NCBI RefSeq assembly: GCF_040954835.1
Contig: NC_090700.1
Span: 19,387,501 to 19,451,500 of the forward strand
DNA: 64,000 nucleotides
Reading direction: 5' to 3'
Source of the DNA: Lepisosteus oculatus
Lineage: Eukaryota; Chordata; Actinopteri; Semionotiformes; Lepisosteidae
Part shown: one piece after another, positions 4,572 to 53,600 of the stretch
How positions within the stretch are numbered: position 1 is the first letter of the stretch
Layout: each line of letters begins with the position of its first letter
Notes under the pieces: model-generated
Seen by the model: only the letters and a program-made list of their open reading frames with translations
Database searches by the model: none
Told to the model about the DNA's origin: nothing
Program-made: the position numbers and the translations under genes

Positions 4572-7500
4572 ATGGGTAAGAAGAGAGCAAAGGAAAAACA
4601 TCTCAGAGATGAAGATCCAGTTGACGTTACAGGTAAGAAAAGGAAGATAACTGCAGAGTAACTGCTACTTACATGTTCACATCTCAGTTGGATCTAAACT
4701 GTTAAACCTGTCTGTCTCTTAGAATGTTGTTGTTTCTACTAACCATAACTTTCTGATCGGTATGTTTGGTATTCTTATCTTTTAATATGTGTTGTAGGTC
4801 TGTGTTGAATCTATCTAGCTTAATTTAAATGTGTAACGCGCCTGTTTGAAACTGCAAGTACTTTTGATTCAGGCCTTTGCTTTTGTTATAGTACTGAATA
4901 GAAGGTAATTTGTACTGTTTTCCGTTAAAGATGTTTTAATTACTTTGATGGAAGTAATTTACATTATATTTTTGTAACAAAGCTAGACATTTATAGTAAA
5001 CCCTTGGTGTAAAGGACTTCAGATTCAACAGACAAAATCTGCTAAAGGGGAATTACATAGGTAAAATCCAAAATTCTGATGTTCCCTGCAATAATGTTGA
5101 AATGACAGAATAAAGCAAAGTTCAAATAAATACTATATGTTTGAAATTCAAGAATATCAGCTGTGGTTTATTGTGGTAGGTTAATTGCTTGCGATAGGTT
5201 TGTGTTTCTAATGATTTAGCAAATTTTATACAGTTTGTTTATGACAGAAATAAAGAACTTGCTTATGTATATTCAAAGGCTTTATTAACAATTTTCATGG
5301 ACTGCTGATTACAGTTGATAAAAAAGTCAAAAGATCCAGTAAGCATATAGTGTGTATATATACTGTATATATGTTTTTTTTCTCATATAATAGTGTGTTT
5401 TGGGGCTGAAAAAGTCATTTGTAATTTACTAGACATTCAACAATAATGGACACCCCTTCCCTGAGGGTTTGCTGTATGTTCTTAAATTTGGACCCATTTT
5501 CATGTGACATCCCTTTAAGGTTTGATAAAGATACCCCAAAGGACTTCTTCAGAATTTAGAGTGAAACATAAACCAAGGGTTACAAGTGGAAACTGTGGGC
5601 AGTGCACTTAAAATCAAGAACAAGAAGCACTTCTTTATGTAAAGACTTGTGGGAGTGACTAACAAGCTACCCAGCCATAATACTCTAGTTTCTTTGAAAA
5701 ATAGAAGCAAACAATACAGATGGACCAAATAGCCTAATCTGTTTGTAACCTTTCTTATGTTCTCATGGTATGTTCTTAATTAAATCCACAGTCATTTTAT
5801 CGTTAGGTTTGTTTAACTGTCTTGATTGTGAATTCACATTTGACTGTTGATATTGAGTTCATCCCTTAAAGGAGATGTCCTGTGAAATGCTGTTTGAGCA
5901 GAAATAGACATGTTTAAAATGTACACTTAAGTCGTTTTTAAAATCTTTGTATATTGAGTCTATGTGGCCCATCCTTCTTACTCAATTGTGGGTAACAAAC
6001 AGGTCCCAGATTCCCTTAAAACTTTCTATTGACAGATCACAGTGTGTCAGATTCAAGACTTTGACTGCGCAATGTATAAAACTACAGTGCCTTGCAAAAG
6101 TATTCAGAGCCTTGACCAATTCTCTCATTTTACCAAATTACAAATCCTACGTTGAAATTTTGTTCTCTGTGATATTTTTATTTCAAAACATTGAAACTCA
6201 AAAGTAGTTATTTTAATGTGACATTATGTTATGTTGCCAAACATTCTTAAGAAAAAAAAACTGAAATATGCTGTTTGCATAAGTATTCAATCCCCACATT
6301 TTAATATTTTGTAGAGACACCTTTTGCCTTTTGCAGCAATAACAGCTTTAAGTCTTTTGAGGTAAGTTTGTACCAGCTTTGTGCACTGTTCAGGAGTGAT
6401 TTTGGCCCATTCTTTCAGGAAGATTTGCTCCAAGTTGTTCAGGTTAGTCAGATGACGCTTGTACACCGCAATTTTCAAATAGTGCCACAGTTTTTCAATT
6501 GGATTGAGATCAGGGCTTTGACTGGGCCATTCTAAGACATTCACCTTTTTGTTTTTGAGCCACTCCAATGTTACTTTAGCTTTGTGTTTGGGTTTATTGT
6601 CCTGCTGAAAGATGAACTGTCTCCCAAGCTTCAGTTTTCTAGCAGACTGAAACAGGTTCTCTTGCAGTATTTCCCTGTATTTTGTACCATCCATTCTTCC
6701 TTCTATTTTAACAAGATGCCCGGTCCCTGCTGATGAAAAGCAGCCCCATAGCATGATGCTACCACCACCATACTTTAATGTAGGTATGGTGTTTTTTGAG
6801 GTGTGGGTAGTGTAAGATTTGCACCACACGTCGCTTAGTCTTTTAGCCAAAATTCGATCTTGGTATCATCAGACCACAAAATCTTTTCCCACATCACAAG
6901 TGGGTCACTATCATGCTTTGTGGCTAACTCCAGACATGCTTTCACATGGTTCTTTTTGAGTAATGGCTTCTTTATGCCATTCTCCCATACAGGCCATTGT
7001 TGTGCAGAGCTCTTGATATGGTTGACTGATGCACCTTTACTCCGCTCTCAGCTATTGAACTCTGTAGCTTCTTCAAAGTGATCATTGGCCTCTCTGTGGT
7101 TTCTCTCAGAAGTCTCCTTGTTTGCATAAAGAGTTTTGAGGGACGACCTTTTCTAGGCAGTGCCTGGGTGGTTTGATGTAGCTTCCACTTCCTGATAATT
7201 GAATCAACACAGCCCTCTGGGACATCCAAACACTTGGATATTGCTTTGTACCCTTTTTCTAAGTTATGCATTTTTTAAGTCATCTCTAACTTCTTTAGAA
7301 TGTTCTTTAGTCTTCATTTTCACAGAAGTCCTTCAGATTCACAACCTGAATAATGATCCTTTAACTGTGGGGTGTTTATCCCAAAAAATGTGGCAGTTGT
7401 TTTAATGATTCACAGGTAGAGTCCAATTGTAAGGCAGTTGTGACCTCGTTAGGACAATTGTTTTTCACCTGTCAGAACTTCTGCATCACAGGGATTGAAT

Positions 7501-10500: not shown

Positions 10501-13500
10501 GAATATGTCACCCTTCACTTGGATTCAGCTCAGGTGGTGTAAATGGCTTAAGTCCTCCATTGGTGATATTAGTGAACCTGTTTAAAATATGTCACTATAA
10601 ATGTTTAGAGCAGAGTATTGTCCGTACATAAAAACTTTCAAATAATGATTTTTTCTTTACATAGCCTCAGTGCTTTCATTTTTTGTACTTATTTAATAAC
10701 TGTATTGTTTTATTTCGGGATACCGGAAGATTTGATTCTCCTCCCTTTTGCAGTTTCAGGAAATAAGTACACCATGGTTCAAACATGACAGAATTCTGAA
10801 TGCTTAGAACAATCGGATGAATATAAAAATTGCCCTGTATTAATACTGGCTTCACCATCATCAGATATCATGTTGACGAGTTATTTAAAAAGTAGATATG
10901 ATATGAATTGGCCAGCATAGTAATGCAGTGGTTAGCATTGCTGCCTCACAGTTGCTGCGGCCCTGGTTCAGTTCCTAGGGTTTTATCTGTGTAGGGTTTG
11001 TATGTTCTCCCTGGTGATAGACGGGTGTCCAGTCCAGGGTGTATCCTGCCTTGCACCTGTTGCTTGCTGGGATAGGCTCCTACTGTCATATGACTTTGTA
11101 TTGGGTAAAGTAGTTAAAAAAGTTATGGATGGATACAATAAGAATTCTGTTGATATGTTTAAAAGTAGTTGCAGAGGACAAAAAGAAACATTGAAAGACA
11201 GCAGCTGTGAACATTAGACTGGGACTAATTCAGCATTGTGTTGCCAATATTCTTGTCAGTGTTTGTGCTGTGTGGAGATGAACACACACTGAAACAAGTG
11301 ATATTAACAACTGTGCTAAGAACTTAATGCGAGTCAAACCTAATCTTTAATTTGTGTCGTTCCTGTGAACATTTGATAGCAGGTTTTCAGGTTAACCTGC
11401 TGTTTTGTCTGTGTATTTTGGTACAGGTGCTATATGTGTGATGATGAGGTTCAGTATTCCCGTACTGGACAACTGGCTCAGCTCGTGAACAACATTCGGA
11501 AGCAAGCCCTTTCAGAGATGACCAAGAAAACTCTGACTAAAAGTAAGTCCAGCTTTGCTTGCTTTCCTCTGTTGTCTTACAAGAATAGTGGTATTTAAAA
11601 CATTAGGCATGTCTGTTCAGAAATATCACCCTAAATCATCTGTCTGCCTCATTTCCCACAAGCCAAAATTGAGCTTCTGCAGTTGATTTTTTCAGTGTCA
11701 TGCTTTCATAAAATAACATAACATCACTTTATTAGCCCTATACAATTCTTTGCATAAGGAATTCGTCTTTTCGCATACTCCAGCTTGCTTTCCATGAGAC
11801 ACACAGACACACAGATAGGGAGAGTGCCTATCCTCTACCATTTCCCTTTACAATTTTAAGTTCAAGCCCAAATGCAGATGTGAGATCATACTTGGCATTA
11901 TCCACAAGTCCACAATCTTTTTTTGTGAATCCTACAGCAGTCATAGATCTTGAAATCCCCAAGGAAACACTAAATGACACAACATCTGAGGAGAACAAGA
12001 ATGGCCAGAAGAAGGACACTAAAGCAGACATCGCTGGAAAAAAAGAAGAAAAGTTGTCGCTCAAGAAGGCACCTCAGACCAATAGCAATAGTTTAGCTGT
12101 TAAAGGGCTCAGCAACCTTGGAAACACATGTTTCTTCAATGCTGTTTTACAGGTAAAATCCGTCTTCATAAAGCTATAGCAGAACAGAATGTGCCCAAGC
12201 AGGTTTGTTTGTTAATGCTGATATTCTGCACAGCTATCTCCTTGCTTTGGAGTTATTGTCTACTTACTTAATGTGGGTCTTCAAATAGTTGAAGAAAAAC
12301 TTCAACAGTTATTTCACTGCTTTGTACAGCATGTGCTGGTATTTTTTCAAACATTAAGAACTCCCACTCCTTGTATAGACATCTCTGTCTTACTGGATTT
12401 TTTCACAGTTAAAAATGCCTATTTTCTCTATAGGGAGTAGAAGCCAGTATTTATACAAATGAGGTAAAATAAAAGAAAATTACAATCACTCCTTATGTAA
12501 ATCCTTGGACATAGTGCTGGTTGGTATGTGTCTTGGGCATAATGTGTGCTTTAGTTCTGGGAAAAGGTTCTTGGATACCAAAATAAGTTAAAAATAATCC
12601 TTATATTGTAGTTTCAATTTATTCTAACAGAACCTTTCCCAGACTCAGTTCCTGAGACAGCTTCTCAATGAAATGAAAGATGAAAAGACTACTCTTCAAA
12701 TTACACCACATCTGTCCTCTCAACTGGTATGTCACAACTGTGTGCATTGTGTTTTTTTTCTGGTTTGTACCTGACATGAATGAAAAGGCATGCCAATGAT
12801 GATTGTGGAAACTGATGTATTTTTAGGAGCCCCTTGTCATCAACCTGGACAGACCTGGCTCTCTGACACTGGCGATGTGTCAGGTGCTGAATGAAATTCA
12901 AGAAACTAAGAAGGGTGTTGTTACTCCAAAAGAACTTTTCTCCCAAGTCTGTAAAAAGTAAGTTAAAAGAAGAGTGTTCTTTTTCATCTTCTCAGTCACT
13001 GAATGAAAGTGGGATAATACTTTGCTTGCTATTCAGAAGTTTACAGTATATTTTTAATGGATAAAATGTTGCAGGTTCTCTCTTCTTCAGCTTCAGTTTT
13101 TGTAGGTTAGAAAATGGGAATAAATGGATTGTGTAAGGGCGGTCATATTGTCCACTAAGCCTGTTTGCAAACCCATGGGACTGATTTGTTTATTGCAGTG
13201 GGTTTGGGGCTTATATAGTTGTGCAGTTTGACGTCTCCTGTTATGTATGGGGTCAGACCCCATATTCAATAACTATTTCAGCCAAACATTAGATGGCCTA
13301 ATCCCCTATAACAAAAGATCAGTCCCTTCCTGCATAGTGTTAAATGCTTTTTAATCTCGAGTCCTGAGTAGTCACATCGTCCTAGCATTCTTGCCTTACA
13401 CCGTGAGACCTGTGTACACTCTCCTCAGCAAACTCGGTGTGTGATAGGCATCATTCTCGTTGATCCGAGTCCAGATTACACTTGCCATCTCACTAATGCT

Positions 13501-25500: not shown

Positions 25501-28500
25501 ACATTGTGATTTCCCCAAACTTACCTCTCCGTAGGACGTGATCCGTTTGGCCAGCTCAATCTCAGTTGCTCCAGCTCCTGGTAGAAGACGTTTATCCTAG
25601 AAAGAGTAATTGGGTGAGGGCATCAAGAAGCAGTCTTTTTTGAAGACATTAATCCAATTGATTATATAAAACTTGAAATGTAATATAATCTTCAATTATT
25701 ATGCAAATGTATGTTTATGTTTAGTTTTCAAATGCAGAGCAATATATTATCAGATTTTAGGTTATGTATATTTTATTGTTAAACTCAATTAGAAATCTTA
25801 GGCAAGTACTGCTTTCATCAGCTCTTTTAATACAACACACTGTTTTGTTTAACATACCCTCACAAGAACTTTGAATGTATTGACTCCATCGTCTACGGCC
25901 CGTTCAACATCATCCATGAGATTGTCTGTCGAGCCTCGGATTACAATAGTAGAGATGGCACCATCCTCTTTTTCTGAAATTGTTAAAAAGCAACGTGGTT
26001 AGTACAAACTTCAGAAAAAATAATTCATTTCATACATACAGTTAATAAATGAAAGTTCACGAATAAGTCATTCACAAAAGCAGGCTCAAAAATGCTTAAA
26101 TGCTCAGTGCTAATTATTAAACATATATAACTCTTGCCACAGAATGATTGCTTCCCCATTACTTTTATCATAATTAACTAATAGGGACAAAGTATAAGCT
26201 CAGAGTTACCATTTTATGTTCTTTATTTTAAGTGTGTATGTTCACAAAAACAAGTGGATTCAGATAAAAAATGTGTCTCAATTTTCTTGTCTAGGCCAAT
26301 TTTGTTTCTTCAAACCTTCACAAAGAATCATGAATTCAAGATGCCTACCATGTTTGAAGACAACAACCTGTGTGTCCCCAACTTCTGAGAGATAAACACT
26401 GTCACAGTGTCCCATCTCTTCGGGAGTAGGTGGTGTCTGTGGAAAGAGTTAAAGGTTAGAGTCCATGGATTTCAACTAAAACTATGAATCTGATACTCAG
26501 ATCAACTTGTTTCACCGTGAAATACAAATATTTATTTGAAATAGAAATCTCCATATCACATATGAAATGTATGAAAGCATAATCAATTCACACTAATTAT
26601 AACCTATATCTATAGCAAAGCAGGCAAATATAGATCAATATAGCTATATAGGCGTTACTAATTGACTGTAATGAATAGAACTGGCATTCCAACGTGACAA
26701 TAAATATTTGAATGCTCAAACTTAACACTGTAAGGTTTTTTTTATTTTTCTTTGTTACTCTTTCCCCAATAAATGTTTGGCTTTAAGCACTCAGGTCTTG
26801 ATTACAAATTCAACAAAATGGAAGGAGGTGAATATTTTTGAAAGGCACTGTATATGTATCATTCATGTATATGTATCATTCATTCACTCGTGAGTTTCAT
26901 TTATAAAACTTACCAATCTGGGTAGTGCTACTGCTCCCAATGTTTTACACAATCTTCTTAAGTCCCACTTAGAATTAAGCCTGTGAAATAACAAATACTG
27001 TATTAAATACATAACTTAGAAAACTCACTTAAGAACTAATGCTGGACCTGTTTGTAGTTGAGCTCCTCAGAGTGACATGTAATGAAACTCTTTTATAGTT
27101 CCCTGTGCCTGAAAAGAAGTACTAAAGCTATCATACAAAAGGTCAAAACAACAACCTTTTCCAGCTCCAAAACAGATGAAGCAGTTGAATTTTTCACAGC
27201 CTTACCTCACCACCATCAGTTGGTATTTGTTGGCATAGTGCAGAGCCATGTCTGCCACTTTGCCACCTGTTACCACTACATTGGCTCCAGCTTCAGCAAT
27301 GGCTTTGACTTGAGTCTCCATCAGATTCTCCTCTCCCCGGCTGAAGGTCATCAACTCCTCTGCATTCTTAATTAAGACGGTTCCCTGATGTAGGCAATGA
27401 CATGTGTTAAAGTACTTTGGCGATGTATCACAGATCCACCCAACAACACCAATCAGCTTATACTCCTTCCTCCATACCACCCCCCACCCTGGGAAAGGAG
27501 ATCCAAGCCTGATTTCCACAGATATATCCCAGATGACTATTTCTAACTTACAATGTGACACTACTTCCCCACACACGACAATATGAATCTAACAGATATA
27601 AATAATCCATAAATGGTATTTTCTTAATCCTAGGGAAATGCTTAAATATAATAATGTACACGATACAAATATGAATTAGCACCTTCAGTCAACCACTGCC
27701 TTACCTTGGTCTCTGTAACCATACAGTCAAATGGACAGGAAAATACAGCTATTTTTGCATCTTTGACGGAAGTGATATCTCCTTCTGTTTCTCTTTTGAA
27801 CACCATTCCATGCAAAACGGAGGAGGCAGTCAATCCACTACCCTGTAGTGACAACAACAGTCATTAGTACAACAGATAGCACCTGCTCTATTTAAATTAT
27901 TATAGATCACGGGGCTTACCAAAATCTTGCACACTCTAACGTTGTCCACATTGAAATTACCGGAGTCAGGGAAAATAGAAACTGCAAAACAAATAATTGT
28001 GCATTGAATAAAACTCTACCCGAGTACTGACAAATATAAAACCTCTTTCTGCAGGTACCTTAGTCTGCACTCTGATCATCAACTCAACAATTAATTTGTC
28101 ATCATTTACATTTCTGCATTTCTGAAATATTTGGTTAGTGCTTTCTTAGCATTTAAACCACTTTTTCTCAGCGAGGTTTGAAAACTTCCAATCTATCCAA
28201 ATGTACAGTAAAAATATCTCACCACAAGCCTGTGCGATGAGATTCGACAGGAAGTCTTCGTTTCCATACTGCTTGCTCATCACAGAAGGACGAATCAGAG
28301 AGGTGGCCTCCTCCACATCATGGAGGTTCTTGGCTGAAGAGCACACACAGTCTGGAAGTATTTCCAGAGCTTTCTTGCATCCCATTTCATATCCTTCAAT
28401 CACCTACATTGAAAAAGACATTAAATTCCTTGTACTCCTATACAGCGGAACAGTTTTAAACAAAACCCCAAACAGCTCACAAGCCCCAGGCCACAAAACA

Positions 28501-31640: not shown

Positions 31641-32016
31641 CTGAACCTGTGGATGTGCGTCAACTCGTATACTTTTCATCATGGGATTAACATCTACCTG
31701 TTTTTGTTGATGGTAGATTACACTCGTGATTACTTCGTTTCCATCATTATTAATATTTTTTATTCTTGTAAAAAACGTTATTTAAAAAGGCATACAAGTA
31801 ATTTTAAAAGAGCAATGCCATGTGTATTATTTTATTAAATTGTTTTAGTGATCTTCAAAGCTTTTCTTATAATTTAAACGTCCATATGTGTATTCATTGA
31901 AAGGTGTCCCTACTCACCGTACATTTTGAATATGATCACAATCATAATAGGTAAACTATTTTGTTAATAATGGGTGATATGCTGTATTTGTAACAAGGAA
32001 TGAAACACTTGTATAT

Positions 32017-32252
32017 TGTAACGCTTACGGCCGACAGGCGCTGTGTAAGAGCCGGCGTACCAGAGCGGGTGACGTCACCGCCCTTCCCTGTGATAGCAGG
32101 ACCACAGCTACTGGGCTGTGGAGAGATCTCTCTTTGGCTCACGGGGCTAGGTCGCTGCAGAGAGACGCGGAAGTCCCGGGTTCGAGCCCCGGACGGTGCA
32201 GGGGCCGACCTAATGCGGCAAGGGCGCCCGCCGGAGCCCCCGTTGCGTTACA
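32017..32252 (+). repeat. 5' LTR with tRNA-like pol III promoter and CRE
   Basis: The LTR holds a 12-bp palindrome GGTGACGTCACC with a perfect CRE (TGACGTCA, 32070-32077), a second palindrome GAGAGATCTCTC (32121-32132), and then a tRNA-like block. The A-box-like TGGCTCACGGGGCTAGG is at 32135-32151 and the B box GGTTCGAGCCC at 32179-32189, 46 nt between tRNA positions 8 and 54 as in a real tRNA. The T arm pairs perfectly (32176-32180 with 32188-32192). The acceptor stem does not pair, so it is tRNA-derived, not a working tRNA. The 3' LTR repeats all of this 298 bp further on. Confidence 0.8.
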
Positions 32253-32314
32253 TTGGTGTCAGAAGTGGGATGGGATAGCCCTTCGCCGGGGACGGCGATT
32301 TAAGCGGGGGAGAG

Positions 32315-32550
32315 TGTAACGCTTACGGCCGACAGGCGCTGTGTAAGAGCCGGCGTACCAGAGCGGGTGACGTCACCGCCCTTCCCTGTGATAGCAGGAC
32401 CACAGCTACTGGGCTGTGGAGAGATCTCTCTTTGGCTCACGGGGCTAGGTCGCTGCAGAGAGACGCGGAAGTCCCGGGTTCGAGCCCCGGACGGTGCAGG
32501 GGCCGACCTAATGCGGCAAGGGCGCCCGCCGGAGCCCCCGTTGCGTTACA
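32315..32550 (+). repeat. 3' LTR, identical to the 5' LTR
   Basis: Same 236 bases as 32017-32252: CRE at 32368-32375, A-box-like block at 32433-32449, B box at 32477-32487. Identity over the full length implies a recent insertion. Confidence 0.88.
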
Positions 32551-32556
32551 ATATTA

Positions 32557-32770
32557 AGGATCAAGTAATAGGTTTATTCCATGCTGAAAAGAGAAGAGAG
32601 AAAACACAACGTTTCGCCAGTGGAGTCTTCTTCGGGTGTAAAGTGTGGCACATGATGACACCTGAAGAAGGCTCCACTGCCGAAGTGTTGTGTTTTCTCT
32701 CTTCTCTTTTCAGCATGGAATAAACCTATTACTTGCTCCTTTGCAGATTGCGCATGCTGATGCAGCTACC
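32557..32770. mobile_element. Head-to-head pair of Penelope-like 3' ends (palindrome)
   Basis: The left arm (32557-32640, minus) and right arm (32651-32770, plus) are inverted copies of the same tail: hammerhead-like core, TTTTCTCTCTTCTC, then ATGGAATAAACCTATTACTT. About 10-15 bp separate them. The right arm runs on through TTGCAGATTGCGCATGCTGA to the family's 3' end; the left arm stops where the miniature LTR element begins. Confidence 0.7.
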
Positions 32771-40200: not shown

Positions 40201-43200
40201 AGGTCTGAAGCAGCGACAGAGAGCTCTTCCCCCAGTTAATTCAAATCCCAGATCAGTTACAGTAGGTGGTACAAAAGCAGTATAAAAGTGAAAGGAGTAG
40301 ATTTAGGTGTCCTCAGATTCTGAATGGACCAGAGAGAGTCATCCCTTCATAGAACTGCAAAATAATTAGAATAAAAATCTTTGTCTCAATGAAAGAGTGG
40401 CACTAAGAAGGTTGCACTACTGTGTAACAGGAAATTCACCTCCTACCAATGCAGCAACTAGAAATGTCTTTCCAAGGCTGGAGAAGAGAGCCAAGCACTG
40501 AGAAACTGGAGATAGAAGCTCCAGTGTGATCAGCAATGTGATGTGAATGGCCCACAGGTCAGGAACAACTTTTCTGTCTAGTACAGCAGCTGGTCTGCAG
40601 CCCTCAGGACCTGCAGCATCAGCAAGAAGATGGTCAGTAGGAGTGAGGATGTTCGGGTATGCAGGTCAGCTCTGAGTCCCTAAAGTCCGTTAGGAAGGCT
40701 TTCAGTTGCTCAGTTTGAACCTTAATTGAATTAACATTGTAATTAACAAAAGCTTTTTAAGAGCTTTCTATTCGAAATAATTTGACTTTTTCAAGTTACC
40801 AAGGTTTTTTTTAGTTCAGGTAAAATCTCTTTTCCAATACAGAAAACAAATCGAAATGATTTAATTTGAATATTATGAGCTGATTTGGGTGTTCAATTAA
40901 ATAAGCCCTAAAATCCAGCAGAAAATGGGCTCACAAGGAAGGAGAGCTGGAAGCCTTAGTATTTGTCCATATTTTAATGGCTGTTGTTGGGTCAAGCAAT
41001 GCATCCACAGTAAAATTAAAATACACATGGAAACTCCCTCAAATATTGATGCAGCAGCTATGTCTTCTGTTCTGATTAAATCATGTACATGAACAATAAT
41101 AATAATATAATAATAAACTTTATTTTATATAGCGCCTTTAAAGGTGGCTTCTCAAAGCGCTTTACAGGATGACAATAACAATAAATAAGAAGACTACAAC
41201 AATAAATAAGAAGATTTCACAAGATAGGACACAATTATAATTACAACAATACAACAATAACAATAGAGGAGACCGTGGAAGGTGGTATTAAGAAGAGCAG
41301 AGGGGTGAAGAATGGAACCAGTTAAGTAAAGGCTTTTCTGAAGAAGAAGGTTTTGAGTCTGGATTTGAAGGAGTTTAGAGAAGGTGACTCTCTAATATCT
41401 TTGGGCAAAGAGTTCCAGAGCTTGGGGGCATAGCGGGAGAAGGCCCTGTCGCCCATACAATGTAGACAGGCTTGGGGGACAGTAAGGTGGGCAGAATTTG
41501 AAGAGCGGAGGTTGCGAGGTGGGGAGTAGGGCGATAAAAGTTCAGACAGGTATTGAGGTGCCAAGCCATGTAAAGCCTTATAAGTGAGCATGAGGATTTT
41601 AAAGTCTACGTGGAATTTGACCGGAAGCCAGTGCAAGGACTCCAGGATTGGAGTAATGTGAACACTTGCACTAGACCTGGTCAGGATTCTGGCTGCTGAA
41701 TTTTGGACATACTGCAGCTTGTCCAGAGTAGATTTAGATACCTCAGGGAGTAGAGCATTGCAGTAGTCAATTCGAGAGAATACAAATATGTTGATCAGCT
41801 TTTCAGCCACAGTTAATGATAGCATAGGGCGTAGTCTTGCGATATTTCTAAGGTGAAAAAAAGATGTTTTGACAGTATGCTGTACATGTGGGTCGAATGT
41901 TAAGCCAGAATCGAATATAACCCCAAGGTTTTTCAATTTTACAGAGCCATCTACAGACAGGGTTACAGGACTGGCTTTACGAAGTTGATGGGGGGTACCG
42001 ATAAGCATGACTTCAGTCTTGTCACAGTTAAGATGAAGGAAGTTTTGAGTTATCCAAATTTTTATGTCAGAGATGCAATTAGATAGAATAGAGACAGCCA
42101 CATCAGTGTCGGGTTTGGTATGGGTGTATGTTTGAGTATCGTCAGCGTAAAAATGAAAGCTGAGGCCATGTGATCTTAAAAACTGACCAAGTGGGAACAT
42201 GTAAATGCTGAAGAGCAAGGGGCCCAGTATTGAGCCCTGGGGGACACCAGACTTGACAAGACCAATTTCAGACCTGTACCCAGAGAGAGAGACAAAGTGA
42301 CAGCGATCAGTGAGGTAAGACTTAAACCATTTGAGGGCAGTGTCAGAGACTCCAAACACAGTCTCGAGACGAGAAAGTAAGATGTTATGGTCAACAGTGT
42401 CAAAGGAATATGGAAAGAGAACCAGAATCAGAAGCTATTAGGAGATCGTTGGTGACTTTGACTAGGGCGGTTTCTGTGCTGTGAAGTTGACACGGAAGCC
42501 AGATTGGAGGGGTTCGAAAAGGTTGTTTGTCATGGGTGGTTATGTAACTGAAGTGTGACAGATAGTAAACTTATAATCAGATAAGTAATCTCTCCAGGTC
42601 TGATAATGTACACTTAGGCCGGAAAGACGCCACCAAGTTTGCAAGAGGCTGCCTTCATGAATCGCAGATGGTCATTGTACCAGGGGGCAGGGCGAGAGAA
42701 GGAGATGGTTCGAGTTTTTAAAGGAGCAAAGGTGTCGAGGGTAGATAAGAGCATTGTCAAGTAACTGTATTTTGTCCTCTAGAGGGTCAGAGGAAGAGAA
42801 ACACGATAAGGAGAACAGAACAGAATTAGCAAACCTTGGGTGATAAATTTATTGCCAGTTGCGGAAATTTACAGAGCTTGAGGGGGAAGTGTTAGAAACA
42901 GGTAATTCCAGATTGAAACAGGTAATTCCATATTGAAGAGAGATTCCTTTTACCAAGCAATAAATGTAATCAAATTATTTTCAAGCTTATTTACCCTCAT
43001 AAATCAGATAGATTTCCAACAAATTGAGTAAATGTGCTGCAAGCAAGAGTATTTTCCAAAGAATGGCGTTGTTATATGCGATAAATTGATATCCACTAGA
43101 GACCGCCAAACCACAGCTTTGTTTTCTCTTACCATGAGGAAGGAAAAGCAGACAGTGATACAGTAAACATGCTCCCCAGCCAAAGGTAAGAGAAAAGAAC

Positions 43201-44661: not shown

Positions 44662-47600
44662 GTAGTAGTAGTAGTATTATTAGTAGTAGTATTATTATTA
44701 TTATTATAAATGAAGAGACACTAAAACGTTTCAAGAAATGTGCTCCAAGAATACATTTATTTATATTTAAATATTCACTTCAATTCAATTTATGTTTATA
44801 TACTGTAGGGCCTTTCACAACAAGGTTGCCCCAAGGCGCTTAACAAAGCAAGTGACCATACATGTTGTGAATACAGAACAGAAAAGACCAGAAGACATCG
44901 GAGGAGAGGTACCAAAAACTCCTTAGTAAGGAGAAAAAAATCTCTAGGGGTCCAAGGTCAACTGTTTGTCTAAACCCTTTATGGCATGCTAACGTTATAC
45001 AATTAAAAACAGGGTATTAATCCATCTATCATGTCTTCTGTACAGTATGTCAGTACTCCATGCAGATCTCTGTAGACCAGCAAAATTATCCTAGCTATAT
45101 CCACAATGTCCCTCTTGGATCCATGGCATCAAACTCAGATGTAGCCCAACCCGGGCGCCATCCGGACATGTGAGGAGGAAAATAGAATAGTTTAGTCAGA
45201 ACAGATGTATCTTTCTGGTGGGCCAACATACAGACACACAATGACATGTACAGCAGCACCAGCAGCCATGGTTGCAGCAGGCTATGATGTAAGGTGTGAG
45301 TAGGCTCGGTTGAAGTAATAGGTTTTCAGTCAGGATTTTAATACTGAGATTGACTTGGCATCCCAAACATGGGATCCATAAGCTAGGGGCCCTGTAACTA
45401 AAGGCTTTACCGTTTTTTTATTAATGTGTGGAATATGAAGAAGACCTGCATTCTGTGATCTAAGCGGGCGACTTGGATTGTATACATTAATAAGTTTAAT
45501 TAGATGGACAGGTGCCTGACCTCTGAGAACCTTATAAGTAAGTAGAGGGATTTTGAAGTCCGCCCTGTACCTGACAAGAAGCCAGTGAAGAGAGCTAAGT
45601 CTTAATACAACTCAGGCACATTTATACAGTCACAGATGAAAGAAGATGTTCAGCTGAAAAATGTTATTTGTTGATTTATTTAATTACTTATTTTTTTATT
45701 TTGTTTATTGAGCTATTGAGCTATGGTCAATATCTATCTATATCTTTCTAATCTTAATTTAATAGAAATAAAATATTTAAATGTGTTTTTTTTACTTTGT
45801 TGGTATCCAAGAACCTTTTCCCAGAACTAAAGCGCACATTACACCCAAAACACATACCAACCAGCACTATGTCCAAAGATTTACATAAGGAGTGATTGTA
45901 ATTTTCTTTTATTTGACCTCATTTGTATAAATACTGGCTTCTACTGCCTATAGAGAAAATAGGCATTTTAAACTGTGAAAAATCCAATAAGACGTAGATG
46001 TCTATACAAGAAGTAAAAAGATTACTGTTCTTCATCTTTGAAAAAATACCAACACATACAAAGCAACTATCTGCAGACCCACATTAAATAACTAGACAAT
46101 AACATCAAAGCAAGGAGATACCTGTGAAGAATATCAGCATTAACAGACAAACATGAACATGCTTGGGCACATTCTGTTCTGCTATAGCTTTATGAAAACT
46201 GATTTTACCTGTAAAACAGTATTGAAGAAACATGTGTTTCCAAGGTTTCTGAGCCCTTTAACAGCTACACTATTGCTATTGGTCTGAGGTGCCTTCTTGA
46301 GCGACAGCTTTTCTTCTTTTTTTCCAATGATGTTTGCATTTGTGTCCTTCTTCTGGTCATTCTTGTCCTCCTCAGATGTTGTGTCATTTAGTGTTTCCTT
46401 GGGAATTTCATGATCTATGACTGCTGTAGAATTTATAAAAAAAGAACGTGGACTTTGGATAATGCCAAGTATGCACTTACATTTGCATTTGGGCTTGAAC
46501 TTAAAACTGTAAAAGCAAATGGTAGAGGAAATAAATCAAATGTTACAAGCACAACACAACTATAATAGTTTAGTGGTTGATACCCATTACTAAAATCAGA
46601 TTTGCATGAGTGAGCTATTTTGATACATTCATCCACACTGAACCTCTAAACTCCAAACACCACTCATGATGAACTGAAGTTCATGCAACTGATGATGAAG
46701 TTTTGCAACTGGTAAATTTGCAATCAAACATTTACCGATACATGCTTGCCAAAATATTCTGAATGATCCACCCAGTAACACAATGGACCTCTGCGAGTAT
46801 CAAGTTTTTCAGTTAGAGTAATTTTTAAATATCACAGGTGGTTAGCTGTGCCAGCATGCGTAGGCTGCAAAGGAACAAGTAATAGGTTTATTCCATGCTG
46901 AAAAGAGAAGAAAGAAAACACAATGATACGACCATGGAGGCTTCTTCAGGTGTAAGAAAGACAGGGCAGTAAGCAAGGTAATGTAGCAGGAAACTAAAGC
47001 TGGGAGAGAGGAGGAGCAGGAGGCGGGAGCAGGGGACAGGCAGAGTGGTCAATCAGGTAGTGTGGAGTCAAGATAGGTGAAGAGAGGTGTGAAATGAAAC
47101 CTACCATGAATAGAGAGAATTTAGAAGAAAATTAGCCTGTTGTTGAGAGAAGACAGAAAGTATGATCCTAGCAGCAGGATAATTTAAGTTTCTGTCATAT
47201 TTCTGATGTAGGAGTTAGAAAAACCATCTTTGAGAACACAGACGGAGAGATTAGTGTGATCATGGCCGTCAGAGGTGAAATTAGAAACAATAGACAAACA
47301 TTTTCTAGACATCAACTTCTCCATTAACTACATCCGACTCTCTACTTCAGTCCATTACAAACCCACTGATTTACTATCTCCTGTATAGCTCATTTCACCC
47401 CAAACACACTAAAAACTCTCTCCCTTTTTCACAGTTCCTTCGGCTACGACGACTCTGCAGCGACGACATCGATTTCCAGAACCAAACCCTCAAAATGTAC
47501 TATTTTTCATTAAACAGAGGATACCCTAACAGTGTTATTGACAGGGCCCTTGCCTGAGTCAAAAACACCCCTCGGACCATCAACTTAATCAGGAACTCCC

Positions 47601-50600: not shown

Positions 50601-53600
50601 CAACAGAAGTTAAAAGGCATTCAGAGTGGGAATTAAAAGGGAATTAAAACTTCAGAAAGAGCTAGTCAGAGTCTCAAAGGGAAATTTATTTTTAACTTGT
50701 CTGTTCTGTCTCATACTGAAAGCAGAAGTAAGAACCACAGGGAACACATGGGAAGTGGTGTTGCCATCGAATTTCCATGTGTTGTAACTGTTTTCAGAGC
50801 ATGTGTGTGGGCTGCTACTGTTCGTCCCCCATGAGGGTTTCCCTCTAAAAACCCATTTTACAGTTGCTGTGGCTTCACGTATAATGCACTTCATTTCTTT
50901 CCAGATGGTCCCACTTATAAGAACAAAGACTCAGGCTCCTTTGGTTCAATTCATTCACTCTTGGGAAGACAGAGTAATACTGTCAAAGACTTGCCAAGAC
51001 ATCATGTCAGAATTTTCCAATGTACAAAAGCTCTGAAGTAGGTCTTCCTGAGATGTACAGTATATTGGACATGGACTTCTAAATAGTCATCCATCCATTT
51101 GCTAATAGCTTCATCCAACACTTTATCCAATACAGAGTGCCTATTTCAGCAAGCAACAGGCGCAAGCCAGGATACACTCTGGACTGGACGCCAGTCCATT
51201 GCAGGGCACCATCAAAATTACACCAAAGCCAAATTTCCCAGAAACCAATTATACAGTACTTCCAGAATGTCTTGGACTGTGGAAGTAAACCGGAGCATCC
51301 AGAAGACCCACATGAACACGGGTGTGCATACTAACTCCACACAGATTGAATCCAGGACCCTAGCGCTTCAAGGTAGCAATGTTATCTACCTCACCACCAA
51401 GTCACTCTTCTAAATAGACTATCTATAATTCATATACGATACAATAATATTATTTTATTATCAGAAACTAGTTTGTGTCTAAGCAGCTATGTTTCACACA
51501 CAGAAAAGTACCTACAAAACTCTACAAACAATATGTATAAACTTCACATTAAAAATGAGTAAAATTAGTTTAACCCACACATATTCCTTATAGCACTCCT
51601 ACAGGAATCCCCACAGTTTACCAGAGCCTGAAAGTTGACTCCCCCAACAATCACAATTAGCTGCTCAAATTGCACAATATCCCTCGTATATCTTGATTTT
51701 TAGGCTTTTTTTGTGTGTATCTGTTTGCAGGTATGATTAATGAAGTATTCTACCTCCCATCTCAAATTCCTTAGATATTTTGCTAACATGCATCTCTCAG
51801 AAGGGGCTCTTAAAAAACAGACAATACGAAAATAATTAATTTGAAATGTATCTGTACAGTTAGAGCACACAATAAACCTACATTACATACTTTCATGAAG
51901 GAATAAGCTAAATGTTTTGATTGTATTATTATAACTACATCCATTTTAAGCCAAGTTACTGTACACCCTTGGATTTGGAAATTGAATTCTTGTATATGGG
52001 ACCAATTTGAAGAAATAAACATGTTAGCATACTGTATGTTAAAAGAAAAGGAAATACAAGATACAGTATTATTATTTATAGCTCAAGGTTGGACCTTTCA
52101 TCCATTGTGGGTCACCTCCACATCCCAAGTGCCATATAAATGCACAGGATTACTATGATTTATTTAGCAATTAGCATAAGCAGTACAGTACATAACAACA
52201 ATAAATTCATATAAGGGAAAATGAGGCATTAATGAGCAAATGTGGACCCTTAAGAATCTTCACTGGTATAACAAGGGAAAAGCAGAGTAAGGATTAGTAA
52301 GGCGTGAGAAAACATAAATATAGATACTGTATATGGTAAAATGATGAATGAGAAATGCTGTGTCGTAGTAAAGTAAATGTGAGTTTTAATACTATAAAAT
52401 CGGTGGAAAAACTACAAAAAATGCTGCACGAAATTATCGACATAAACTTTTATTACTGTCTTTCTCAGCTTTTTTTGGGGTTGCCCTGTTTCTTTAGTCA
52501 GTCAAGTGAAGACAAGAGTGTCATCTTCATGCCAGAGGCAGCTTGCTTAAGCTCTCACAGCAGTGCTGAGAGTTGACTGGCCTTAGCTGATAGGCTTATC
52601 ACACTCCTTTCAGTTGTTATTTCTGACCTGCTTCTCAACATGCCCCAGCTTCCACTTGGCTTTTATCAGAATGCTTATCCCTGCCTCTTCTCATGCATAC
52701 AAATTCATTTCTTCACTTCTTCTCCAGCCGCTGCCTCCCTATCAGTCATTGCCTGAATCCCTGCAAGTGTACAAGGACCACTGCAAAATGGCCAAAGAGT
52801 TTCACGATGTCAAGAAGGAGATTGCTCGGCTGGAGGAACGGAAGTAAGTCATTGCAAAAAGGAGATTTGGAAAATGCAAATTGACATCTTTTATAGGAAC
52901 GGAGCATCAGAAAGTTCACAAAACAAGCAATATTTTGTTGCCAGCTAAATAGGTTTTCTGTTCATATCTAGGTATGTTGTTTGCTGATGTCACCCTTCCT
53001 GTTTTGTTATGTCATTTACTTTCACTTCTTTAAGGTAAGAAATGTCCAATGAAAACAAATTTCCATTTCACATTTCCTAATGCTGTTAATATTACTGGCT
53101 CAGTAACTTGGCATAGGTTTCAACCACAATTCACTATGCTACTTTCCTTTTGAAAACTATCAAAATAACTTCTAGTTTTATCTAAGCCCCCATGCATGAA
53201 CTATGAACAAATACAGATTTGTACACAGAGAAACAGGCTACTTAGACTTTTATGTTCTCCCTGTGTTTGTGTAAGTGTCTTCCGGATTCTCTGGTTTCTT
53301 CCCACAGTCCAAAGACATACTGGTCGGTTAACTGGCCGTGGTGAAAGAGCATACAGTGTTTGGGTCTGTCTGCCCTGGGATGGGCATGGGATGGACTGGG
53401 ATGGGCATTGGATGGACTGGGATGGGCATGACATGTGGATGGGATAGACTGGGATGGGCATGACATGGGGATGGGATGGGCCCTGGGATGGGCATGGGAT
53501 GGACTGGCGTCCCATCTAGAATGCATCCCACCTCGCACCCGCTGCTTGCAAGGATTGGCTCTGGCTCCCCAGTGACCCTGAACTGGATGAAGTGTTTAAG

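Follow-up and report, generated by a model that had tools for sequence, protein, structure and literature searches.

How a 534-bp LTR retroelement without genes could spread in a vertebrate genome is the question raised by positions 32017-32550 of the window, the whole 64,000-nucleotide stretch of Lepisosteus oculatus contig NC_090700.1 that was analysed here. The sequence-only reading took this locus for a complete TRIM, and it had to be decided whether it is a member of a mobile family or a single damaged or duplicated copy. Helenus elements are TRIMs with tRNA-like sequence in their LTRs (Kojima 2024, PMC10886601), and by sequence comparison the window element is a genuine, recently active TRIM of this known kind. 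As a whole, the explanation considered probable is that of a Helenus-type, gene-less LTR retroelement with a Pol III-type promoter in its LTR, mobilised by a gypsy element and also giving rise to palindromes of strong-stop DNA.

Structure of the element

Self-comparison of the window gave two LTRs on the plus strand, at 32017-32252 (5' LTR) and 32315-32550 (3' LTR), which are 236 bp long, 100% identical and bounded by TGTAACGC...GCGTTACA. Their identity ends abruptly at both outer sides, and comparison of the flanks showed the target-site duplication ATAT on the left (32013-32016) and on the right (32551-32554). The spacer between the LTRs (32253-32314, plus strand) is exactly 62 bp and has no coding capacity. 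The 18-nt primer-binding site TGGTGTCAGAAGTGGGAT (32254-32271, plus strand) begins one base past the LTR, complements the 3' end of host tRNA-Leu and is the sole match in the window at three or fewer mismatches, while the polypurine tract GGGGGAGAG (32306-32314, plus strand), read from the sequence, abuts the 3' LTR. The LTRs, their ends, the interior and the ATAT flanks had thus been described exactly beforehand, and the primer site and purine tract were both located as claimed. The features that define a TRIM (two LTRs, primer-binding site, polypurine tract, no coding capacity and a length under ~1 kb) were all found, so that the earlier identification of a complete TRIM stands, although it overlooked the tRNA-like Pol III promoter in the LTR.

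Two 12-bp palindromes are present in each LTR. A motif scan placed the first, GGTGACGTCACC, at 32068-32079; it holds the core TGACGTCA, which we take to be of CRE type. The second, GAGAGATCTCTC, occupies LTR 105-116 (32121-32132, plus strand) and is the centre of head-to-head inserts in other copies. Downstream of it on the plus strand, an A-box-like motif TGGCTCACGGG (LTR 119, 32135-32145) was found by motif scan and a B box GGTTCGAGCCC (LTR 163, 32179-32189) by comparison of the consensus with shuffled LTRs. The same features recur in the 3' LTR, with palindromes at 32366-32377 and 32419-32430, the A box at 32433 and the B box at 32477 of the plus strand. The G+C content of the LTR is 0.66 vs 0.37-0.38 in the 5-kb flanks, and its CpG observed/expected ratio is 0.95 vs 0.29 across the window. 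A packaging-type hairpin in the interior was not significant (fold z-score -0.64). A hammerhead ribozyme, as in retrozymes, was rejected for the LTR, as the CTGANGA/GAAA core is absent from LTR and interior and no such Rfam match was obtained.

A dispersed and recently active family

In the genome (1.2 Gb, 813 contigs), exact matches to the final 43 nt of the interior number 440, compared with none for the reversed pattern used as control. This argues for a real, young, dispersed TRIM family and excludes both a lone deletion and an assembly duplication, which had been named beforehand as the outcomes that would overturn the TRIM reading. That the window copy is a one-off remnant of a long element with its middle deleted, for which the small size alone would speak, has practically no probability, considering the 440 exact interiors, the full-length copies with independent duplications and a partner LTR, described below, that is unrelated past 8 bp. 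Among 100 of the 440 interiors that were listed, 85 loci could be distinguished; 12 of these carried more than one interior, six of the 12 on both strands. With the 534 bp as query, 2165 candidates were obtained; the 40 that were scored contained 94 matched stretches, and the full-length copies among them were 96-99% identical to the window copy, itself recovered at 100%.

Outer flanks were identical over 4 bp in 34 of 39 distinct loci and over 5 bp in none (0/39). Shuffling the flank partners gave a mean of 8.3 matches and a maximum of 17 in 10000 trials. All 34 matched targets fit NTAN, and 15 of them are ATAT. These counts leave out L043, an exact 3.6-kb copy of L042 that is still included in the variant table, as well as array sub-views of one place and L031, on a viral contig. 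Scans of viral contigs gave no match to the joint of LTR and primer-binding site and one match, L031, to the B-box region. The genome search proposed in the sequence-only reading, for copies, duplications and LTR identities, therefore found the family. Its argument that the outer target duplication proves movement as a unit was invalid, since a later internal deletion keeps the duplication; movement as a short unit is still supported by the independent family copies with their own duplications.

The absence of differences over 236 bp sets a 95% upper bound of 1.3% on the divergence of the window LTRs. Within the 25 loci with two LTRs, the LTRs differ at 1.7 positions on average and are identical in seven; between loci the average is 4.0 positions, and five of 1200 pairs are identical. 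However, dating by LTR identity is rough in this family, since the two LTRs of an element are sometimes of different subtypes: those of L006, L016, L036 and L045 differ at several recurrent positions, and 3-6 positions separate the LTRs of some two-LTR elements. Such partly recurrent differences are not expected from simple reverse transcription and therefore count against the explanation preferred here. That the family is non-autonomous and recently active, as had been suggested, is borne out by the 440 interiors, the copies at 96-99%, the mostly individual 4-bp duplications and a candidate autonomous partner.

Two further observations concern single loci. L042 and L043 (C456:1114393 and C456:299023) form an exact 3.6-kb duplicate within one contig, likely an assembly duplication or a very recent segmental one. 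At L044:2134-2137, one ATAT is common to two Helenus insertions, the second having apparently entered the target duplication of the first.

Primer site and host tRNA-Leu

Among 57 interiors, recurrent variants were found only at interior positions 14, 18 and 19, all within the primer site, while seven further positions vary once each. Two array loci, L038 and L047, are absent from the primer-site tally and the variant tables. With L043, L038 and L047 left out, 56 interiors fell into a CGC type (29), a TAT type (17) and mosaics (10). The window copy is of the TAT type, which is the complement of the host tRNA-Leu 3' end. A single pattern made of the tRNA-Leu T-arm and acceptor occurs at 12 places in the genome; the ends of ten are perfect complements of the TAT type, those of none complement the CGC type, and the other two differ at the positions matching 14 and 19, respectively. 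Six of the places were fetched, and ARAGORN called tRNA-Leu in four. The other two, cut at the 5' side, appeared by eye to be intron-bearing tRNA-Leu-CAA; with introns allowed, ARAGORN called one of them tRNA-Arg and made no call for the other. On the simplest reading, new copies would receive TAT from the primer tRNA and CGC from the RNA template, and the mosaics would be repaired heteroduplexes.

Head-to-head palindromic inserts

Three loci from the 534-bp search (L047, L048 and L049) flip orientation at the palindrome of LTR 105-116, the centre of which is altered in L047. An exact 28-mer of this joint with the R side outward occurs at 10 places in the genome, which represent nine insertions, as two of them lie in a single element on contig C11; L049 is met once more among them. 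Neither the U3-side mirror joint (exact 26-mer) nor the joint on the right of the CRE palindrome, which has the same length, occurs in the genome, and the left-side CRE joint is absent from the family loci examined. The 28-mer and 26-mer counts are lower bounds, because these patterns span variable LTR positions (106 and 120, and 103-106, respectively). Three inserts of 252 bp are composed solely of two head-to-head pieces of LTR 105-236 and have the target duplications ATAT (L052 and L060) and TTAT (L061). Matching 4-bp flanks (ATAT, ATAA, ATAC, GTAC, GTAT or TTAT) were present in 12 of the 14 head-to-head loci of which both ends were seen (L047, L048, L049, L052, L053, L055, L056, L059, L060, L061, L062, L093, L094 and L095); the exceptions are L059, which is old and has indistinct ends in the wider stretch L063, and L095, without matching flanks. 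Of 12 palindromic loci, 10 have arms of unequal sequence, with one differing position in L052, two in L062 and at least four in the others; the arms of L047 and L060 show no difference. Differing arms indicate that two molecules were probably joined.

If the RNA starts at LTR 105-108, LTR 105-236 would be the minus-strand strong-stop DNA; the start was therefore placed there, and the palindrome at 32121-32132 would be the RNA 5' end and the beginning of R. The head-to-head inserts are apparently integrated dimers of strong-stop cDNA. The other head-to-head joints, L093 (112/145), L094 (131/128) and L095 (197/186), fall within R-U5, as would be expected if strong-stop DNAs of shorter length had been joined through small matches. 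L049 and L095 also contain joints of the reverse polarity (+ to -), which involve U3 and are not accounted for by strong-stop dimers; that at L049:2199-2222 is a second kind of fold-back joint, at a hairpin placed near LTR 92-100 or, more widely, at about 86-104, shortly before the RNA start deduced here.

The 252-bp palindromes could also be a separate MITE-like family of DNA transposons moved by a transposase, and they do look like elements with terminal inverted repeats and short duplications. This is very improbable, however, as their ends are the U5 ends of the LTR, they are exactly as long as two R-U5 pieces with the palindrome in common, their arms differ between copies and carry Helenus LTR variants, and their duplications are of the 4-bp, ATAT-like kind of the LTR family. 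Returning to the strong-stop origin, we give an even chance to the wider proposal that the dimers are a second replication product, with U5-ended 252-bp palindromes that insert like MITEs and can serve partner genes as LTR-like ends. As a source of palindromic, MITE-like insertions, integrated strong-stop dimers would be out of the ordinary, and some inverted-repeat elements elsewhere could then stem from such dimers. Literature on integrated strong-stop palindromes was not recognised among the matches listed, which is a weak negative.

Tandem arrays

More than two LTR pieces were found in 14 of the 39 loci, with matching outer flanks in 11 of the 14, and the largest array (L038) has 22 LTRs. 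Types of primer site are mixed in 11 of 14 multi-unit loci. In L012, L029 and L033 the outer LTRs are identical while the inner ones differ by 3.3, 5 and 6 positions on average; the same tendency appears in L019 and L046 (outer 1 and 2 vs inner 3.5 and 5), but L022, L028 and L038 do not clearly show it (outer 3, 4 and 3 vs inner 2.5, 2 and 3.55). A run of eight LTRs in L047 has the same variants. As for a change of subtype at LTR 105 in array units, L012 by eye fits both phases.

For arrays of the plant TRIM Cassandra, recombination and template switching were both left open (Kalendar 2020, PMC7215508), and for those of bivalve TRIMs recombination was preferred (PMC6934838). Arrays and palindromes could both have arisen in the family studied here by DNA recombination after insertion, through unequal crossing-over or cruciform repair. 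The eight-LTR run of L047 and the 22 LTRs of L038 look locally amplified, L091/L092 (see below) and L042/L043 show segmental or assembly duplication, and the outer duplications of tandem arrays would be kept under both models. On the other hand, recombination fits poorly with minimal U5-R/R-U5 inserts that lack U3 but have duplications, with U5 ends on both of their outer sides, with arms differing in 10 of 12 loci, with the lack of U3-side and right-side CRE joints, and with the outer identity and inner divergence of L012, L029 and L033. It is thus regarded as rather unlikely, and the observations favour arrays that formed or moved as whole units in the course of reverse transcription, some of them being amplified locally afterwards.

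A candidate Ty3/gypsy partner and its chimeras

One of the palindromic loci, L062, contains two identical 252-bp palindromes around 1.8 kb of other sequence, all inside one ATAT duplication. The 1.8 kb carries a minus-strand gag-protease frame that reaches the start of the reverse transcriptase (RT) and lies beside the primer site TTGGTGTCAGAAGCGGG. The frame matches an aspartic protease at 3.5e-6, and its nucleocapsid matches are weak (best E 0.0076). On the truncated side, the partner meets sequence of the tRNA-Leu 3' end over seven common bases, ATCCCAC.

For the gag region, 406 candidates were obtained; the 40 that were scored, among them L062, match at 99-100%. In one partner copy ATAT is followed by a 351-bp LTR beginning TGTAACGC and then by TTGGTGTCAGAAGCGGG, the length being based on LTR ends inferred from the start motif and the primer-binding site. 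This LTR contains AATAAA and no B box, and shares only 8 terminal bp with the Helenus LTR, being otherwise unrelated; the primer regions of the two elements are 94% identical over 17 nt. When 20 further gag copies were probed on the 5' side, 12 had the partner LTR start, six followed inverted Helenus sequence, and in the remaining two (L076 and L086) the partner LTR was shifted or its start changed. The 12 partner 5' flanks were ATAT (4), ATAG (2), ATAC, TTAC, AAAG, CAAG, TAAG and AACT (1 each), so that eight fit NTAN, judged from one side only, with AAAG, CAAG, TAAG and AACT outside the pattern.

The six gag copies after inverted Helenus sequence are L072-L075, L080 and L090, on contigs C456, C412, C380 and C35. 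Wider stretches around two of them, L091 and L092, showed a single insertion duplicated together with its flank at 99.4%, and the six may therefore not be independent; the shared flank suggests an amplified region. The frame of L091, which was seen without its right end, continues into RT and RNase H domains. Helenus strong-stops are thus tied to the gypsy element by at least two structurally different chimeras, L062 and L091.

The same LTR start, the near-identical primer site, the similar target and the chimeras with palindromes make the Ty3/gypsy element the likely helper of the TRIM; for the assignment as Ty3/gypsy-mobilised, sequence comparison supplied a candidate helper with matching ends, primer site and target. 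The autonomous element sought in the sequence-only reading was to have the same LTR ends and primer site; the candidate does share the first 8 LTR bases, but its primer site is near-identical, not identical.

The putative LTR promoter and the assignment to Helenus

The B box of the LTR is perfect, and the A-box match lies upstream of it at Pol III-like spacing. Among 5000 dinucleotide shuffles of the LTR, the B-box consensus occurred in six, and a B box together with an upstream A-box match in none. The A box is 14 nt downstream of LTR 105, and the RNA start deduced from the palindromes lies 11-14 nt before it, which is the distance expected for Pol III. These features point to a Pol III-type promoter in the LTR, made up of A and B boxes. 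AATAAA and ATTAAA are absent from the LTR. TTTT is absent from the whole element, which is no signal, as 2813 of 5000 shuffled elements lack it as well.

A complete tRNA gene in the LTR was ruled out at default settings, ARAGORN finding no tRNA there and Rfam listing no tRNA match at E up to 10. With -ps80, ARAGORN gave a degenerate tRNA-Arg-like fold across each LTR, but such relaxed settings are unspecific, since -ps50 gave seven matches in 800 bp. Aligned with human tRNA-Val, Ala and Lys, the LTR scored above all 500 shuffles, 0.5-1 point over the best of them; with human tRNA-Leu it did not exceed all 500. As a sign of tRNA descent of the LTR these alignments are only suggestive, and its tRNA likeness appears partial.

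It might be asked whether the element is an ordinary TRIM that Pol II transcribes from LTR 105, its A and B boxes being relics or due to chance. Full tRNA models fail at default settings, a palindromic TGACGTCA site stands upstream at LTR 54, and the strong-stop evidence fixes the start, not the polymerase. Against this stand the joint occurrence of both boxes at Pol III-like spacing, seen in 0 of 5000 shuffles, the distance of 11-14 nt between start and A box, and the lack of AATAAA/ATTAAA in the TRIM LTR vs its presence (AATAAA) in the partner LTR. Transcription by Pol II is consequently held to be unlikely, if somewhat less so than recombination.

With an A box and a perfect B box in the LTR, the element is filed under Helenus. 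Helenus LTRs carry the motifs TRGCY, YGG and GGTTC, 4-bp duplications are the rule in animals, and vertebrate members use tRNA-His, Leu or Lys as primers (PMC10886601). A/B-box motifs, 4-bp duplications (34/39) and a tRNA-Leu primer were all found here. The remark in the sequence-only reading that TRIMs are best described in plants was incomplete, Helenus having already been described from fishes; its hosts include coelacanth, sterlet, paddlefish and ostariophysan fishes (PMC10886601).

A possible life cycle

The following course would account for most of these structures; its polymerase, packaging and mobilisation are those that we infer from sequence. Pol III would start the RNA near LTR 105-108 and read through, and the RNA would be packaged in particles of the gypsy element. 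Host tRNA-Leu would prime minus-strand DNA, plus-strand synthesis would rewrite the primer site, and the gypsy integrase would insert the product at NTAN sites, chiefly ATAT. As the RNA would begin in a 12-nt palindrome, two strong-stop DNAs could pair through their 3' ends and prime each other, and the resulting U5-R/R-U5 palindromes could also be inserted by the integrase. Tandem arrays may come from repeated transfers or from multimeric RNAs.

Comparison with known systems

A literature search on Helenus TRIMs found PMC10886601 alone. The elements described there (e.g., TRIMp3) resemble the present family in their TRIM length, two short LTRs with A and B boxes, primer-binding site and polypurine tract, 4-bp duplications and tRNA-Leu primer; a gypsy-type partner without LTR homology is likewise expected, and tandem arrays are known in one fish family. 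In its available text, Pol III transcription is not demonstrated, and palindromic strong-stop inserts, two types of primer-binding site compared with host tRNA, and chimeras of partner and TRIM do not appear. Cassandra (PMC7215508) is similar in the Pol III promoter of its LTR, its tandem LTR-interior arrays and a helper not identified in the text available, but is a plant element with a 5S rRNA-type promoter and near-identical array units. The biv-TRIM of bivalves (PMC6934838) is an animal TRIM with tandem arrays too, although it has no clear primer-binding site and its arrays are ascribed to recombination. Within the same genome, the Ty3/gypsy element (L064, L091) shares the TGTAACGC start, the primer region and an often ATAT-like target with the TRIM and is unlike it in its 351-bp LTR with AATAAA and in its gag, protease, RT and RNase H. 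The transcription, the mobilising element and the array origin of Pol III-driven TRIMs are left open in the available parts of PMC10886601 and PMC7215508. The present family keeps internal records for each step, namely an inferred RNA start, a tRNA-matched primer site, a candidate helper with chimeras, and arrays of mixed subtype that have duplications at their outer ends.

Other features of the window

Beside the element, 32556-32741 forms a near-perfect inverted repeat with 84-nt arms (93%) and an 18-nt loop, the halves of which recur near 2177, 22071, 46816 and 48333; it matches microRNA models below threshold, as can be expected of a long hairpin. Two open frames, at 11736-12179 and 46182-46535 and of opposite orientation, share most of a protein stretch ending NLGNTCFF, without a Pfam match; the stretch is reminiscent of a ubiquitin-specific protease exon. 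On the minus strand, 27202-27588 holds an exon matching T-complex protein 1 subunit theta (CCT-theta), with ~94 bits to the best chains and 48.5 bits to chain 4v81, from yeast, which agrees with an animal genome. Also on the minus strand, 6287-6865 is what remains of a DDE transposase and 41322-42434 of a reverse transcriptase. A minisatellite at 53375-53507 has several overlapping periods around TGGGATGGGCA.
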